Below, piece after piece: positions 15,376 to 61,653 of a DNA stretch of 61,653 bases. The DNA is from a bacterium (GTDB lineage: Bacteria > Patescibacteriota > Minisyncoccia > Phycocordibacterales > UBA2100). The position numbers and the translations under genes are program-made. The stretch covers positions 1 through 61,653 of the forward strand of contig JAUSGQ010000035.1 in assembly GCA_030674455.1 (NCBI GenBank). Direction: 5' to 3'. The notes under the pieces were generated by a model that was given only the letters and a program-made list of their open reading frames with translations, searched no databases and had not been told where the DNA came from. Numbering within the stretch: the first letter of the stretch is position 1; every line of letters begins with the position of its first letter.

Positions 15376-16824
15376 ATGACTGCTATCCAGATCATACCCT
15401 TCCAAAGACTTGTGGGAATGGCTGCAGCAGCTTCTCTTACCATCTTTCCGCTCGGAGTATATGCTGACGCGATTGGAAAGATTTCTTTTACAACAGATGC
15501 GCAGAGTATTGCAGTCGGAACGAGCTCGAGCCAAATAACGCTTGAAACAGAAGACGTTAATGGGGTTCCAGTGAAGGGTAATACCGTTTGCGTTCAGATT
15601 ACATCGTCTTCTCAAAGCGGCGAATTTTCCACGAACACGACATGGGGCACGGACTCAATACGTACTCTTTCGCTCACCATCGCCTCTAACCAATACCGGC
15701 GCAACTTTTATTATCGCGATGGGGCGGCCGGTTCCTATTCATTGAGCGCGAAAGCCGCGATTAAGCCCGGCGAGACATGCACCACATGGTCTCCGGACAC
15801 AGGAGTTCAATGGACAGCGACGCAAAATATTATAATTGGAAGCGTTTCCCCTCCTTTAAATGAAGAAAGTAGCACGCAGACAAACACACAGACTACGACA
15901 ACCACGACACCATCACCCGCAAGCGCACCGGTCTCATCCTATGTTGCGCCGCCGGAGCCGCAAATCTTTGCGGACGGGGGAGAGAATCGGACGGTAATCG
16001 TCGCGGCGGATACGGAATTTCTTGCACGCGCGTATAATCGGAATAAAGAAACTATCTCGGGCAACATTAGATTCTCATGGAACTTCGGCGACGGCTCAAC
16101 CGGCGAGGGTCAAAGCGTCCTGCATCATTTTGAATATCCGGGAAAGTACGCTGTGGTTTTAAACATTGCGGACAACCGCGACGCGGCATCGGACAGAATA
16201 ATTGTTACTGCAGAACCTGCGAAACTAGCCTTTAGCACATATCCGGACGGCAGCATCATGATTGAGAATCATGCCGGACGCGACCTCAATCTGTCGAGCT
16301 GGCTAGTGCGTTCCTTTGGGCGCGTATTTATGGTGCCGAAGGATTCTATTATTCTCGCGGGCGAAACTTTGCGCATAGGCGAAAAAACGCTTGGCTTCAG
16401 AAGCTCCGCTGAAACGGAATTAGACTATCCGAATGGCGTGCTGGCGCTTCGCGCGGGAACCGCAAATGAAGCTTCGGATTCCGTGAAGGCAAACGTAGCG
16501 GCGGCGTCCGCAGTCGCGAAACCTCGCTCCATCCCCGTTTCAGCAATAGTCGTTCAAGCAGAAAAAGAGCGCGTAGTTGCTTCCATAGCGTCGGATGTTT
16601 CAGATGTGACTCTTGCAATGGAAGAAATTGCTACTGACTCGGACGATGAATCAGGCAGAAGCGCGCAGACAGCATCAGTAGAAGAGCCAGGGTCTGGCGG
16701 AACGGGTGGATACATGTGGTGGCTCGGCGCTCTTGGCCTGGCTGTTGTCGGTACCGGCGCGGTTTTGGCTTCTCGCCGCGCGCTAAAAAAGGAATGGGAC
16801 ATCATTGAAGAAAAGGAGGGGTGA
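15376..16824 (+). CDS. secreted/anchored surface protein with PKD and lamin-tail-like domains
   Basis: N-terminal signal-like segment; FSWNFGDGSTGEGQSVLHHFEYPGKYAVVLNIAD PKD motif; ENHAGRDLNLSSWLVRS..GETLRIGEKTLGF lamin-tail-like; C-terminal TM. Confidence 0.75.
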   Translation: MTAIQIIPFQRLVGMAAAASLTIFPLGVYADAIGKISFTTDAQSIAVGTSSSQITLETEDVNGVPVKGNTVCVQITSSSQSGEFSTNTTWGTDSIRTLSLTIASNQYRRNFYYRDGAAGSYSLSAKAAIKPGETCTTWSPDTGVQWTATQNIIIGSVSPPLNEESSTQTNTQTTTTTTPSPASAPVSSYVAPPEPQIFADGGENRTVIVAADTEFLARAYNRNKETISGNIRFSWNFGDGSTGEGQSVLHHFEYPGKYAVVLNIADNRDAASDRIIVTAEPAKLAFSTYPDGSIMIENHAGRDLNLSSWLVRSFGRVFMVPKDSIILAGETLRIGEKTLGFRSSAETELDYPNGVLALRAGTANEASDSVKANVAAASAVAKPRSIPVSAIVVQAEKERVVASIASDVSDVTLAMEEIATDSDDESGRSAQTASVEEPGSGGTGGYMWWLGALGLAVVGTGAVLASRRALKKEWDIIEEKEG

Positions 16825-16921
16825 GGACAGCAGCACCTATTTTGGACGGCGGAATCACTCAAACCGTCTACAGGTGTCTATCATGAACGATAGACCCGTC
16901 CAAAATAGGTGTTACTGTCCT
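16824..16921. repeat. dumbbell inverted-repeat element, copy 2
   Basis: aggacagcagcacctattttggacgg / cccgtccaaaataggtgttactgtcct outer arms; inner aatcactcaaaccgtctacaggtg and tctatcatgaacgataga. Confidence 0.75.
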
Positions 16922-16990: not shown

Positions 16991-17875
16991 ATGGCAAGCA
17001 TAAAAAAGACAGTAATTGTGACGGGCGGCGCAGGCCTCATTGGGCCTTCTTTGATAGAGCTTTTGCTCGAGAAATATAGGGTAGTTTCTCTGGACAGTTA
17101 CTTCATCGGCTCCGAGAGAAATCACATAGAAGGCGCTACATACATTAAGGGACATACCAAAGACATCGCAACGCTTCTCGCGAACGAAAAACCGTCGATA
17201 ATTTTTCATCTCGGAGAATACTCGCGCGTTGAGCAGAGTTTTAAGGACATAGAATTCGTGTGGGAATCGAATGTCGCGGGTACATTTCGAGTTCTTGAAT
17301 ACTGGAGAAAGCTCAATCAGGCGGGCAATGAATGCAAACTGGTGTACGCCGGCTCAAGCACAAAATTTGCGGACGGCGGATTGGGGCGCGACCAAAGCCC
17401 CTATGCGTGGATGAAAGCGAGCAATACCGAGCTCGTGAGCAATTACGGAGATTGGTTCGGCCTGCCATTCGCGATTACCTATTTCTACAACGGATATGGA
17501 CCGCGCGAACTTTCTGAAGGGCCATACGCGAGCGTGATGGGAATATTCAAAAAGAAATATGCCGCAGGGAAGCCAATTACCGTCGTTGCTCCCGGGACGC
17601 AGCGCCGCAATTTCACCCATGCAGATGACCTGGCGCGCGGGCTTTTTATGGTCGGAGAAAAGGGGCAGGGAGACGAATACGGTTTGGGAAGCCCCGAATC
17701 ATATTCTCTTCTTGAGATTGCACAGATGTTCGGCGGAACAATAGAAATGCTGCCGGAGCGAAAAGGTAATCGCATGGAATCGGTGATGGACACCTCGAGA
17801 GCGGAAAAAGAATTCGGCTGGAAGCCGGAACATACCGTTAAGGAATATATAGAATCGTTGAAGCATGCCCGGTAG
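16991..17875 (+). CDS. NAD-dependent epimerase/dehydratase
   Basis: VIVTGGAGLIGPSLIELLLEKYRVVSLDS..YAGSSTKFADGG..YNGYGPRE..RRNFTHADDLARG. Confidence 0.85.
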   Translation: MASIKKTVIVTGGAGLIGPSLIELLLEKYRVVSLDSYFIGSERNHIEGATYIKGHTKDIATLLANEKPSIIFHLGEYSRVEQSFKDIEFVWESNVAGTFRVLEYWRKLNQAGNECKLVYAGSSTKFADGGLGRDQSPYAWMKASNTELVSNYGDWFGLPFAITYFYNGYGPRELSEGPYASVMGIFKKKYAAGKPITVVAPGTQRRNFTHADDLARGLFMVGEKGQGDEYGLGSPESYSLLEIAQMFGGTIEMLPERKGNRMESVMDTSRAEKEFGWKPEHTVKEYIESLKHAR

Positions 17876-18003
17876 GACAATTTCAAATTGCCTTGTATGA
17901 ATATCTATCAGCGGATAATAATAAAGTGTTTTCAGAATGGTTTGCAAAACATCCCCTGTTCGACCTGCGGCAGAAATTATTTGAAATTGTACTAACCGGG
18001 CAT
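17865..18003. repeat. boundary inverted-repeat element, family A copy I
   Basis: atgcccggtaggacaatttcaaat..atttgaaattgtactaaccgggcat; one arm carries the upstream TAG stop, the other overlaps the downstream ATG. Confidence 0.85.
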
Positions 18004-32907: not shown

Positions 32908-33873
32908 TCAACCCGTTCTTTTTTTGAAATGAACCACGGTCCTTTTTATACCTTTGTCGAAAGAAACGCGGGGCTTCCATCCCAACTCGTTCTCGAGTTT
33001 CTGGCTCGAAAGAGCATATCTGAAATCGTGTCCCGGACGATCGGCCACATGCTCGATTTCCTTTTCGGTCTTTTTAAGGAGATGGAGCAACTTCTTTGTT
33101 ATTTCAAAGTTGGTATATTCCTCCCTGCTTCCGATATTGTATATTTCTCCCGCTTTTCCTTTTCGGAAAACAAGGTCTGTTGCTTTCACGTTATCCTCCA
33201 CATACAGCCAACTTCTGATATTTCCCCCCTTCGCGTATAGAGGGACTTTTTTCCCTTCAAGAAGGAAGGTGATGAATTTTGGTATGAGTTTTGTGGCGTC
33301 TTGCCCGGGACCGTAATTGTTTGAGCTTCGCGTTATCACTCCCTGCAGATTGTAGGTGTGTATGTAGGAAAGCAGAAGTAGTTCTGCGCTTGCTTTTGAA
33401 GCGCTGTATGGATTGCGTGGATTGTAGAGAGAGTCCTCGGTAAACGGCGGGGCGTACGCAGTCAGGTCCCCGTAAATTTCGTCGGTGGAAACGAGGTGGA
33501 ATCGGGAAAGTTTGTAGTCCAGCGCAAGCTGAAGAAGGTTATTAGTTCCTTCAACATTTGTTTTTATACAAATGCTTGGATTTTTGATGCTCTGGTCTAC
33601 ATGCGTTTCGGCTGCAAAGTGGATGAGATGCGTCGGCCTGTATTTGTTAAAAATATCGGTCATGGAGGCTACGTCGCAGATATCGGATTTCTCGAAAGCG
33701 TAATTCTTTCTATTCTCTACGGATACATTGCGCAAGTCGGCGGCGTAGGTTAGCGCATCGACATTTATAAAAAGCTCACGCGGATATTTCGTTACCGCGT
33801 AGTTGAGGTAATTACTGCCGATGAACCCCGCACCGCCGGTGACAATTGTCCTTCTATCGAACTTACTTTTCAT
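32908..33873 (-). CDS. rfbB: dTDP-glucose 4,6-dehydratase
   Basis: TIVTGGAGFIGSNYLNYAVTKYP..HFAAETHVDQSIKNP..LVSTDEIYGDL..FTEDSLYNPRNPYSASKASAELL..TRSSNNYGPGQ. Confidence 0.93.
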   Translation of the reverse strand: MKSKFDRRTIVTGGAGFIGSNYLNYAVTKYPRELFINVDALTYAADLRNVSVENRKNYAFEKSDICDVASMTDIFNKYRPTHLIHFAAETHVDQSIKNPSICIKTNVEGTNNLLQLALDYKLSRFHLVSTDEIYGDLTAYAPPFTEDSLYNPRNPYSASKASAELLLLSYIHTYNLQGVITRSSNNYGPGQDATKLIPKFITFLLEGKKVPLYAKGGNIRSWLYVEDNVKATDLVFRKGKAGEIYNIGSREEYTNFEITKKLLHLLKKTEKEIEHVADRPGHDFRYALSSQKLENELGWKPRVSFDKGIKRTVVHFKKRTG

Positions 33874-34606
33874 GGGATAAGCGTTTTTTCATAAACAGGG
33901 AAGCCTTGTGCAAGGCGTCTATGTTGCCGATATCAAACCATTCCTTCTTGAGCATGTGCGCGCGCAAAGTACCTTCTTCGAGATACAGGGAATTTACTGA
34001 AGTAATCTCATATTCCCCCCGCGCGCTTGGCGGGATTTTCCTGATTTTCTCAAACACCGTGTTGTCGTACACATATAGGCCGGTGACAGCCAAATTACTT
34101 TTTGGTTTCAGCGGCTTTTCCTCCAGCGAGAGAATGCTGCCTTTATTATTGACCTCCGCGATGCCAAAATGCTTTGGGTCCGGCACTTTCTTCAAGAACA
34201 CAGTTGAACCTTTCTTAAACGACTTAATGGCGGGAGTTATGTCGTCCAAAAATATGTTGTCGCCCAAAAATAGTACGCAATTGTCTTTGCCTACATAGTC
34301 TTCTGCGATAAAGAGGCCGTAGGCGATGCCGTTCGGTTCGTTTTGTATGCCGTATACGATTTGGATCTGTTTCGCGTGGGTCGATTTTGGGACGAAATGC
34401 TGCCCTGAGCCGAGCAATCTCACAAACGAATCAATATGGTGAGGGGAGGTGACTATCATTATCTTTGTTATGCCGGCATCGACCAGCTTTTCTATCGCGT
34501 AGTAAATGACCGGCTTGTTGAACACCGGCAATAAGTGCTTGTTTGTAACTAGCGTAAGCGGATGCAGTCTGGTGCCCGAACCGCCCGCTAGAATAACAGC
34601 TTTCAT
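33863..34606 (-). CDS. rfbA: glucose-1-phosphate thymidylyltransferase
   Basis: MKAVILAGGSGTRLHPLTLVTNKHLLPVFNKPVIYYAIEKLVDAGI..LGDNIFLDDI..FGIAEVNNKGSILSLEEKP. Confidence 0.92.
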   Translation of the reverse strand: MKAVILAGGSGTRLHPLTLVTNKHLLPVFNKPVIYYAIEKLVDAGITKIMIVTSPHHIDSFVRLLGSGQHFVPKSTHAKQIQIVYGIQNEPNGIAYGLFIAEDYVGKDNCVLFLGDNIFLDDITPAIKSFKKGSTVFLKKVPDPKHFGIAEVNNKGSILSLEEKPLKPKSNLAVTGLYVYDNTVFEKIRKIPPSARGEYEITSVNSLYLEEGTLRAHMLKKEWFDIGNIDALHKASLFMKKRLSHEK

Positions 34607-34729
34607 CCCGTTAGAGGCAGTCCGCCCACCGGCGGACCGTACCTGATTTATTGCTGATAATCGACCACACTGATTCTCTGCACAGATGTTCCATATGTAT
34701 AATTTGTCTTCCGCATCCTCTAACGGGAT
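34605..34729. repeat. boundary inverted-repeat element, family B copy 1
   Basis: atcccgttagagg / cctctaacgggat 13-bp perfect terminal inverted repeats; one end includes part of the rfbA start codon; internal palindrome tccgcccaccggcgga. Confidence 0.8.
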
Positions 34730-34772
34730 TCATCCCAGCCATACTATACTCGCCGTGTTATAGTGTCCAATC

Positions 34773-43421: not shown

Positions 43422-43550
43422 CCCGGTTAGTACAATTTCGAATAATTCTTGCGGCTGCTGGTTCGAACAAAAACTGGTCGTTCGCATCAGCACGCTTGTG
43501 TTTTCAGTGTATGTGTTCATATCAGAGTAATTCGAAATTGTCCTACCGGG
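43422..43550. repeat. boundary inverted-repeat element, family A copy II
   Basis: cccggttagtacaatttcgaat..attcgaaattgtcctaccggg; includes the stop codon of the E1-alpha-like gene. Confidence 0.85.
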
Positions 43551-44545: not shown

Positions 44546-44679
44546 CCCGGTTAGTAGAATTTCGGCTTGCCGAAGGCGAAAGCTGAGAATAATAGACGAA
44601 GTATACACATCTGTACTGCGTGGTCGACCTTACCCATCTCAGGGGCGGCAAAAAACATAGCCGAAATTACACTACCGGG
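44546..44679. repeat. boundary inverted-repeat element, family A copy III
   Basis: cccggttagtagaatttcggct..agccgaaattacactaccggg; abuts the E1-alpha-like start codon and contains the stop of the next gene. Confidence 0.83.
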
Positions 44680-55318: not shown

Positions 55319-56488
55319 TCAGGCACTTTTCTTGTTTGCGAGGGACTCAAGGTTTTCAACGAATTGCCGTGATACAACGTCCGCGTCAAAAACGCGCACG
55401 CGCTCTACAGCTCTTTTCGCGTACGCATTGCGTTCATTGGGATTGTTGAAGAAAAACAGAATGCATTTCACGAGGCCCGCGATGTCTTCTTTTGGGAACG
55501 TCATACCGGCATCTCCCGCGACCCACGCAGGGGCGGTATTCTCGGTCGAGATTATTGGTAGACCGCAACCAAGCGCGTCCGCTACTACTCTTGAGAATGG
55601 GTCAGGCCAGCGGGAAGGATGGACGAATACATGCGCGTTTTTGTAGAAGCCGAGCAGTTCTTCTCGGCTTTTCCATCCGTGCAGGAAGACTCGTTCGGTG
55701 AGGCCGTTATCTCGGATAAAATCTTTCAATCGTTCCTCCTCGTTTCCGCGTCCGATTATGTGTATGTGAATGGCATTCGGCAATTGGAGAGCCGCTTTGA
55801 CAATCAGGTCGGGTCCCTTATCCGCTATTAAGCGCCCAGCGAATATCACACGGAACGATTTTGTGTCATTGCCGAACGGCGTAGGCGCTTCTTTGTTCGT
55901 TACTCGCTCTATTGGAGCGGGAAGGACAATGGATGAACGCGCCCTGTATCCGAATCGCTCAAAACATTCTTTTATAGTTGGCGAGTCAAAGAAAAGAAGG
56001 TCAACGCTTCGCATGAGCGGGATGCCGATAAGCTTTTGCCACAGGTACCATTTGATTGTGTGGATGCGATGGCGCGCGCGACCAAATAGGCGTGTAAGAA
56101 TATTTCCTGAAAAGGGGGGGGGACTAGTGAAACCCATGCCAGGCGCGTAATTGTTAATGCTTGCTACTACCGGAGCCGTTCCTCCTCTTTGCTTGTATAT
56201 TCCTCCAGCCCACATCACAGTCGGCCCGTAGAGGTGGTGGATGTCGGCGTCCGCGTTCTCGCTCATCATCTTTGCAATGTGCCGCTGGAGTGCCAGAAAG
56301 CCGCCGCTGAAATTTTCCTCGCGCATCTCGCAAGGTTTTTGCGCGTAGTTGTTATCGTCGGAGGAAAAAGTAGTTAGTATTGGAATATGACCTTGCGTGA
56401 TAAGCGCGCGAATAAAAATCTCTAGCGAATGATGCGAGCCCCCGCCGGAAACCGTGTTGTATCTCAACGTGTAAATATAGACTCGCAT
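55319..56488 (-). CDS. GT4-family glycosyltransferase with G9 homopolymer tract
   Basis: 389 aa; VIFAGRLIADKGPDLIVKAALQLPNAIHIHIIGRGNEEERLKDFIRDNGL..ADALGCGLPIISTENTAPAWVAG. Confidence 0.88.
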   Translation of the reverse strand: MRVYIYTLRYNTVSGGGSHHSLEIFIRALITQGHIPILTTFSSDDNNYAQKPCEMREENFSGGFLALQRHIAKMMSENADADIHHLYGPTVMWAGGIYKQRGGTAPVVASINNYAPGMGFTSPPPFSGNILTRLFGRARHRIHTIKWYLWQKLIGIPLMRSVDLLFFDSPTIKECFERFGYRARSSIVLPAPIERVTNKEAPTPFGNDTKSFRVIFAGRLIADKGPDLIVKAALQLPNAIHIHIIGRGNEEERLKDFIRDNGLTERVFLHGWKSREELLGFYKNAHVFVHPSRWPDPFSRVVADALGCGLPIISTENTAPAWVAGDAGMTFPKEDIAGLVKCILFFFNNPNERNAYAKRAVERVRVFDADVVSRQFVENLESLANKKSA

Positions 56489-56623
56489 ACCCGCACACTA
56501 AGTGTGCCTTAATTTTATGCCGAGGCAATTCCAGATGCACCAAAGCTTTTCTCCCATTATTGCAAGGTCATGCATAGCGACTGGGTTCATAATAAGAGGC
56601 GAAGGCATACTTAGTGTGCGGGT
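56489..56623. repeat. boundary inverted-repeat element, family C
   Basis: acccgcacactaagtgtgcct / aggcatacttagtgtgcgggt, 21-bp arms with one mismatch; one arm abuts the GT start codon. Confidence 0.85.
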
Positions 56624-56760
56624 GGGTGGGTTTAGCGTTCATAAATCCACGGCATCTCTGATAGGATTCGGCATGACAACATGGCTTGAATACTTGATTA
56701 TAGGGATGAAAGAAGCTAGTATCACACTGTACTGTTGCCCCCGAGTCCCCTCAATGTAGC

Positions 56761-61370: not shown

Positions 61371-61434
61371 TAAGTGTTGTGTGTGAGTGTGTGGCGCAGA
61401 CTTTATGTCCGTGATAGGATTTATTTTCATATGA

Positions 61435-61638
61435 ATCCCATTAGAAGCCATCTTTCGGGAGCAGATATAGGATCGAGGTAGTAAAACAGAAATCAACATT
61501 ACTTATGCAGAAAAAAGCCTGCCCGCCAAAGCCAGAGCGATGCAAGTTATACTTAAAATAAATGTTATGTATTTACTAACTAATCAAGTCAGTAACCATC
61601 GCAACTTTAGGCGATGGCAGGCGGGCTTCTAACGGGAT
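61435..61638. repeat. boundary inverted-repeat element, family B copy 2
   Basis: atcccattagaagcc / ggcttctaacgggat; nested ccatcgcaactttaggcgatgg hairpin; right end overlaps ATG at 61637. Confidence 0.75.
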
Positions 61639-61653
61639 GAATTACGACACGAC
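61637..61653 (+). CDS. possible CDS start truncated by the window edge
   Basis: ATG AAT TAC GAC ACG AC directly after CTAACGGG, the same context as rfbA. Confidence 0.3.

Follow-up and report, generated by a model that had tools for sequence, protein, structure and literature searches.

Family B elements at two start codons

The window, by which we mean the whole stretch of DNA that was analysed (61,653 nucleotides), contains two copies of an inverted-repeat element, here called family B, one at the start of an rfbA-like nucleotidyltransferase gene and one at the window end. The first is bounded by a perfect 13-bp inverted repeat with arms ATCCCGTTAGAGG (34605-34617) and CCTCTAACGGGAT (34717-34729), whilst in the second, with arms at 61435-61449 and 61624-61638, 14 of 15 arm bases are paired. 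Both copies abut an ATG, and in these respects the description given by an earlier sequence-only reading of this DNA proved accurate. The element proper has the ends TCCCG..CGGGA and occupies 34606-34728 (123 bp) and 61436-61637 (202 bp), the terminal inverted repeats of the 123-bp rfbA element being TCCCGTTAGA..TCTAACGGGA. The features at the two sites are:

33863-34606, minus strand: host gene, rfbA-like nucleotidyltransferase (PF00483)
34602-34605, minus strand: right (gene-side) TGAA duplicate, which together with the last A of the element (34606) makes the rfbA ATG
34606-34728, minus strand: family B miniature element, 123 bp, TCCCGTTAGAGG...CCTCTAACGGGA, in the same orientation as rfbA (read from the sequence; empty site in genomes G019 and G046)
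34611-34733, minus strand: upstream ORF MNPVRGCGRQIIHMEHLCRESVWSIISNKSGTVRRWADCL, which opens at the original start and closes at a TAA lying 4 nt ahead of the regenerated rfbA ATG; 41 codons including the TAA (read from the sequence)
34729-34732, minus strand: left TGAA duplicate
34731-34733, minus strand: original rfbA ATG, now the start of the upstream ORF (compare the empty site ...TATGGCTGAG-ATGAAGGCC)
61436-61637, plus strand: second family B element (202 bp), which has an additional module (CCTGCCCGCC...GGCGGGC) in its interior and TGAA duplicates at 61432-61435 and 61638-61641
61637-61653, plus strand: first part of the host gene that follows the second element; the same junction lies in contig C15 (L007), before a 220-aa methyltransferase (PF05175)

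The TGAA flanking the 123-bp element is a 4-bp duplication from the rfbA start ATGAA. Across copies with flanks the family B layout is host ...ATGNN-TCCCGTTAGA...TCTAACGGGA-TGNN... host gene, with TGNN on both sides, such that the ATG of the regenerated gene consists of the last A of the element and the duplicated host TGNN. The window contig appears to be broken at the second repeat (61640-61653), and the end of C15 has the same junction followed by the methyltransferase gene; the shared sequence suggests that C15 continues the window contig.

The interiors of the two window copies differ, one having an extra internal GC-rich inverted-repeat module, and no recognisable nuclease sequence is left in either. 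Their description as unrelated is correct for this pair but misleading for the family, as the interiors of the other family B copies in this genome are related to one another. An Rfam scan of the window returned tRNA only, with no match to a known structured RNA leader. A promoter reading from the right end of the element (TATCTC-TAACGGG-ATG) was considered and dropped on its weak -10 box match.

Insertion and target-site duplication

The motif CTAACGGGAT occurs 24 times in the 1.25-Mb genome (reversed-pattern control, 0), nearly all occurrences forming facing pairs 100-230 bp apart; the genome-wide statistics given here are based on pattern searches and fetched loci. Neither a random placement relative to start codons nor a lack of the partner arm, the two outcomes against which the sequence-only reading had set its proposal, was found in the genome search, in which starts are favoured and the partner lies within 250 nt.

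Orthologues of the rfbA-like gene in two genomes of the genus (G019 and G046) are without the element and represent the empty site: G019 reads ...CACTATAACACAGCAAGTATAGTATGGCTGAG-ATGAAGGCC and the window ...CACTATAACACGGCGAGTATAGTATGGCTGGG-ATGAA-(element)-TGAAAGCT. Similarly, for a ruvX gene carrying a full-length copy, element-free genomes of that genus begin the gene directly (L239, L242), the ruvX orthologues having been fetched with a partly approximate query sequence and then read directly. An exact 4-bp duplication is present in 92 of 136 distinct family B copies; it is absent in about one third of all copies, some being shifted by one base. Where the duplication is not TGAA (TGAG, TGCG, TGTA, TGGA), both sides agree in 25 of 29 cases, and the duplication therefore derives from host DNA. 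Copies that are 98% alike occur at different genes within one genome. At the level of sequence comparison these observations establish that the elements are insertions with target-site duplications, which the earlier reading had not foreseen. The copies are short and multicopy, with terminal inverted repeats, no transposase, a target-site duplication and an empty site, and have autonomous relatives with the same ends in the full-length copies of related genomes, the features by which miniature inverted-repeat transposable elements (MITEs) are recognised.

At some genes there are tandem insertions (L194, L096, L105, L173), in which a later element has entered the ATGAA junction that its predecessor had created. 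Some family B copies (L018/L019, L080) contain nested hairpins of the CCCCGTTAGAAG...CTTCTAACGGGG type.

The full-length element encodes a GIY-YIG nuclease

A search for full-length elements (approximately 280 bp between the ends) yielded 27 loci in 23 of 397 genomes, against none for the reversed control. The full-length form measures approximately 275-280 bp and its single gene encodes a GIY-YIG nuclease of 93-95 aa, the consensus protein at most of the 27 loci being MNPVRDxxxWYVYVLxSKKDGxWYTGSTxDLRKRFxQHNxGxxxSTKxRGPxxLIYYEACxxExDARSRELYLKSGMGKRYLKNRLKRFLSLTG. It matches PF01541 with E of about 1e-14 to 1e-16. In scans of the nuclease ORFs only this domain and a weak, overlapping T5orf172 match were found, with no DDE, HUH, serine or tyrosine transposase, and elements of 275-310 bp leave no space for a second gene. 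In an AlphaFold model (mean pLDDT 80) strands and helices follow one another as in the GIY-YIG fold; the solved structures nearest to it are UPF0213 proteins (1zg2, 1ywl), with I-TevI and UvrC domains lower, none of these matches reaching E 0.001.

In many copies the nuclease ORF starts at the original start codon of the host gene, such that the MN of MNPVR.. is host-derived and PVR comes from the left repeat; in the remainder an internal ATG or a shifted left junction serves as the nuclease start. In order to read insertion sites independently of ends and flanks we used a protein-only scan of one genome per species, which gave at least 458 relatives, of which the best 80 loci were read. The ends CCCGTTAG/CTAACGGG are present at 75 of these 80. 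Among 50 distinct insertions with T..A ends the right side is flush with a start codon in 46 and the left side in none, 45 of the 46 being followed by an ORF of at least 60 aa or one open to the contig end, and ATGA is found in 44 of the 50. The nuclease stops at +1, in the TGA within the host ATGA of the right duplicate, in 41 of 45 start-codon insertions. The element thus borrows both its start and its stop from the duplicated host start codon. Values of dN/dS are about 0.05-0.2 in most close nuclease pairs, and the protein is therefore kept by purifying selection.

Both window copies belong to the miniature, MITE-like derivatives that lack the nuclease. Two other copies (L207, L177) retain the beginning and the end of the nuclease but not its middle, and some miniature copies, at least, are therefore internal deletions. 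Of 68 miniature copies, 22 (the window rfbA copy among them) have an upstream ORF that connects the old start with the new, compared to 4.7 expected from shuffled interiors; with only this fraction keeping the ORF, coupling cannot be the rule for deleted copies. The window's own genome assembly has no family B nuclease, though it contains about a dozen family B miniature copies, which may be relics or may have been moved by a partner that was lost or left unassembled.

A full-length copy in G008, a genome of the window's genus, is identical over 2482 bp to Candidatus Kaiserbacteria MFKV01000004.1. Most relatives come from Patescibacteria; others are in Omnitrophota, Planctomycetota and further MAGs, in which C..G ends at non-start sites are common. 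A phage origin was considered and is unsupported, IMG/VR viral contigs having given one weak relative only.

The start codon as target

The search for miniature copies was made unbiased by leaving ATG out of the pattern, and gave 70 distinct copies, 59 with T..A and 11 with C..G ends. Of the T..A copies, 56 lie directly before an ATG and 46 before an ORF of at least 60 aa, whilst 3 of the 11 C..G copies are at starts (GTG). The family B relatives with C..G ends (L266, L267, L291, L307, L324 and similar), from Omnitrophota and other phyla, are for the most part found away from starts, with TTTA among their duplications; a difference in one terminal base pair (C..G for T..A) is accompanied by a different target.

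Placement at start codons could in principle reflect survival only, with insertion at any ATG and loss of the intragenic copies, a reading that concerns target choice alone and is otherwise compatible with the explanation proposed below. A copy inserted in coding DNA would indeed be selected against, and copies with the nuclease depend on a start codon. The window holds 46 ATGs at gene starts and 191 intergenic ATGs that are not starts, and tolerance alone hence predicts about 19% of insertions at starts; the 46 of 59 found among the unbiased miniature copies, which need no translation, speaks for targeting, and we regard survival alone as an unlikely, if not negligible, account of target choice.

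A TANNNT box beginning at -13 or -12 from the original ATG is present at 29 of 76 sites and at 25 of 161 other ORF starts (p = 2e-4, against a rough background set). Shine-Dalgarno sequences are rare at the insertion sites and no commoner there than in the background ORFs. Within the limits of that background set, the two observations fit genes with leaderless promoters.

Family A and other end families

A further element, family A, has the ends CCCGGTAG..CTAACCGGG and in this genome 4-bp duplications such as TATG, CATG, TTTG and TACG, its subgroup with TTTCGAAT arms lying nearly always at the starts of long ORFs. Three family A copies and one of another type, family D, lie in the window:

17868-18000, plus strand: family A miniature, duplication CATG, flush with ATG 18002 (glycosyltransferase)
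43422-43550, minus strand: family A miniature, duplication TTTG, not flush, the next likely ATG being about 17 nt downstream
44546-44679, minus strand: family A miniature, duplication TATG, flush with ATG 44544 (dehydrogenase E1)
56490-56622, minus strand: family D element (CCCGCACACTAAG...GTGTGCGGG) of the CCCGCACACTAA type, flush with ATG 56488 of the ORF 55319-56488; the end motif is common to the GIY-YIG-coding loci L340 and L343

The placement of family A at start codons claimed by the sequence-only reading is thus seen in two of its copies but not at 43422-43550. The dehydrogenase E1 gene has its 3' end at that copy, with the ORF stop TAG (43543-43545) inside the left repeat of the element. 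The likeness noted between the junctions of the two families holds for the right junctions, but the insertion offset differs, being after NATG in family A and after ATGNN in family B.

The sole full-length family A copy in this genome (G000:C15:59946-60247) encodes a GIY-YIG protein (MPGRTISNRFYYVYVLQ...NNSKLY) that runs from the host ATG to a TAA in the right repeat, with TATG duplicated. An exact search of the genus for the full-length family A pattern returned this copy only, and the protein search added three relatives (L327, L328, L329). GIY-YIG genes are present in 49 of 52 genomes of the genus. Further end types, among them CCTGTCACACGAAATGACC, CCCGCACACTAA and CCCCCACACTAA, flank GIY-YIG genes, many at start codons (30 loci read). 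As had been claimed, different inverted repeats do converge on start codons, and the reason is that these codons are the target of related nuclease elements. The ATG context is the site that is inserted into and not a motif shared by the repeats.

The window region 56478-56634 spans the family D inverted-repeat element, for which a left duplication was not found at 56490-56622. An intergenic inverted repeat at 16824-16921 (AGGACAGCAGCACCTATTTTGGACGG, 26-nt arms at 92%) is by eye unrelated to the ends studied. Yet another element type is present at G000:C10:72102-72323 (L086), where a perfect inverted repeat of 23 bp, ACCCAGCACCTTGTTTGTTTATG, flanks a GIY-YIG gene and contains an ATG that the gene may use as its own start.

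Proposed mechanism and alternatives

From these sequence patterns we propose that family B is, very probably, a mobile element whose GIY-YIG nuclease moves full-length and miniature copies alike and whose host gene survives by translational coupling. The staggered cuts that move both forms would be made by the nuclease, its substrates being the repeats and a target site that includes a start codon, in many cases closely preceded by a -10 box. The native promoter and start codon would drive nuclease expression, and the host gene would be translated by stop-start coupling at ATGA (or TAA-CGGG-ATG); its survival through coupling is what, we propose, makes insertion at a start codon tolerable. Miniature copies would arise by internal deletion and then be mobilised in trans, start codons being selected by the nuclease or by the transcription machinery. 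GIY-YIG enzymes are known as hydrolytic nucleases and not as strand-transferring transposases; a host repair step may take part in strand joining. To our knowledge strand joining by a GIY-YIG enzyme would be new.

That chemistry is one argument for an unrelated transposase, encoded elsewhere, that moves the elements with the GIY-YIG gene as passenger or helper; a second is the presence of family B copies in the genome without a family B nuclease. The GIY-YIG gene is nevertheless the sole coding content in several repeat families, spans the element from one end to the other and is maintained by purifying selection, and we consider a transposase acting in trans improbable. Marginally less probable still is ectopic homing, in which the nuclease would cut at start-codon sites and the break be repaired from the donor via shared ATGAA, the duplication then being donor homology and not the product of a staggered cut. 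GIY-YIG nucleases are the classic homing enzymes (PMC1564403) and TGAA is common to most sites, but under donor homology TGAA should be found on one side at least, contrary to the agreement of both sides in most non-TGAA duplications. Host regulatory leaders (attenuators or translational switches) in place of parasites would account for the fixed position and orientation before starts and for upstream ORFs that are complete more often than expected, but are very improbable given the functional diversity of the host genes, orthologues without the element, the lack of an Rfam match, variable interiors and copies nested in tandem.

Returning to the nuclease-driven element, we lean towards regarding it as a transposable element of a new class, with a single-domain GIY-YIG nuclease (approximately 95 aa) as its entire mobility machinery. 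Such an element would target start codons, in many cases those of genes with leaderless promoters, where a -10 box immediately precedes the codon; what it recognises may be the promoter or the transcription bubble. It would own neither start nor stop codon, borrowing both from the duplicated host ATGA and coupling host translation to its own.

If this is correct, few of the self-sufficient mobile elements known would be as small (about 280 bp, one gene), GIY-YIG nucleases could drive transposition with target duplication, and it would become clear how a parasite can settle in important genes, smc, ruvX and a probable topA among them, and leave them functional. Patescibacteria genomes are very compact and safe insertion sites scarce in them. 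The proposal would also account for repeats otherwise resembling regulatory leaders, and would serve as a caution in annotation, a start codon in these genomes often being the product of an element; an enzyme able to place DNA at start codons would also have practical appeal.

Comparison with known systems

The novelty of a start-codon GIY-YIG element is provisional: no description was found in a search limited to open-access full text on GIY-YIG with transposons, MITEs at start codons or GIY-YIG in CPR/Patescibacteria. The small GIY-YIG proteins of the UPF0213/YhbQ-like group (1zg2, 1ywl) are the closest in solved structure, whereas the gene described here is bounded by terminal inverted repeats and takes its start and stop from the host gene. 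REP/RAYT and IS200/IS605 systems are similar in combining small repeated palindromic elements with a single small enzyme; here, in contrast, there is no Y1 (HUH) enzyme, and the elements have long inverted termini and a target duplication. Rickettsia palindromic elements, of about 150 bp, also enter genes in a manner compatible with translation (reviewed in PMC10969869). Those lie in frame within ORFs and become part of the protein, whereas the elements here sit at the start codon and regenerate it, the full-length form encodes a separate protein, and in-frame intragenic insertion is not seen, the nuclease frame ending at the TGA of ATGA.

With GIY-YIG homing endonucleases (I-TevI type) and free-standing homing genes the elements have in common the GIY-YIG catalytic domain, selfish spread and a host gene that tolerates the insertion, but they differ in having no intron or intein, in their inverted repeats and target duplications, in a single domain of approximately 95 aa and in hitting the start codons of many unrelated genes and not one cognate allele. 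A classical insertion sequence or DNA transposon has a known transposase, which these elements do not. Prokaryotic MITEs, non-autonomous derivatives of insertion sequences, resemble the miniature copies in their 100-230 bp length, terminal inverted repeats, short target duplication, multiple copies and proposed mobilisation by a full-length relative; what distinguishes the present elements is that the full-length relative has a GIY-YIG nuclease in place of any known transposase, and that insertion is specific to start codons.
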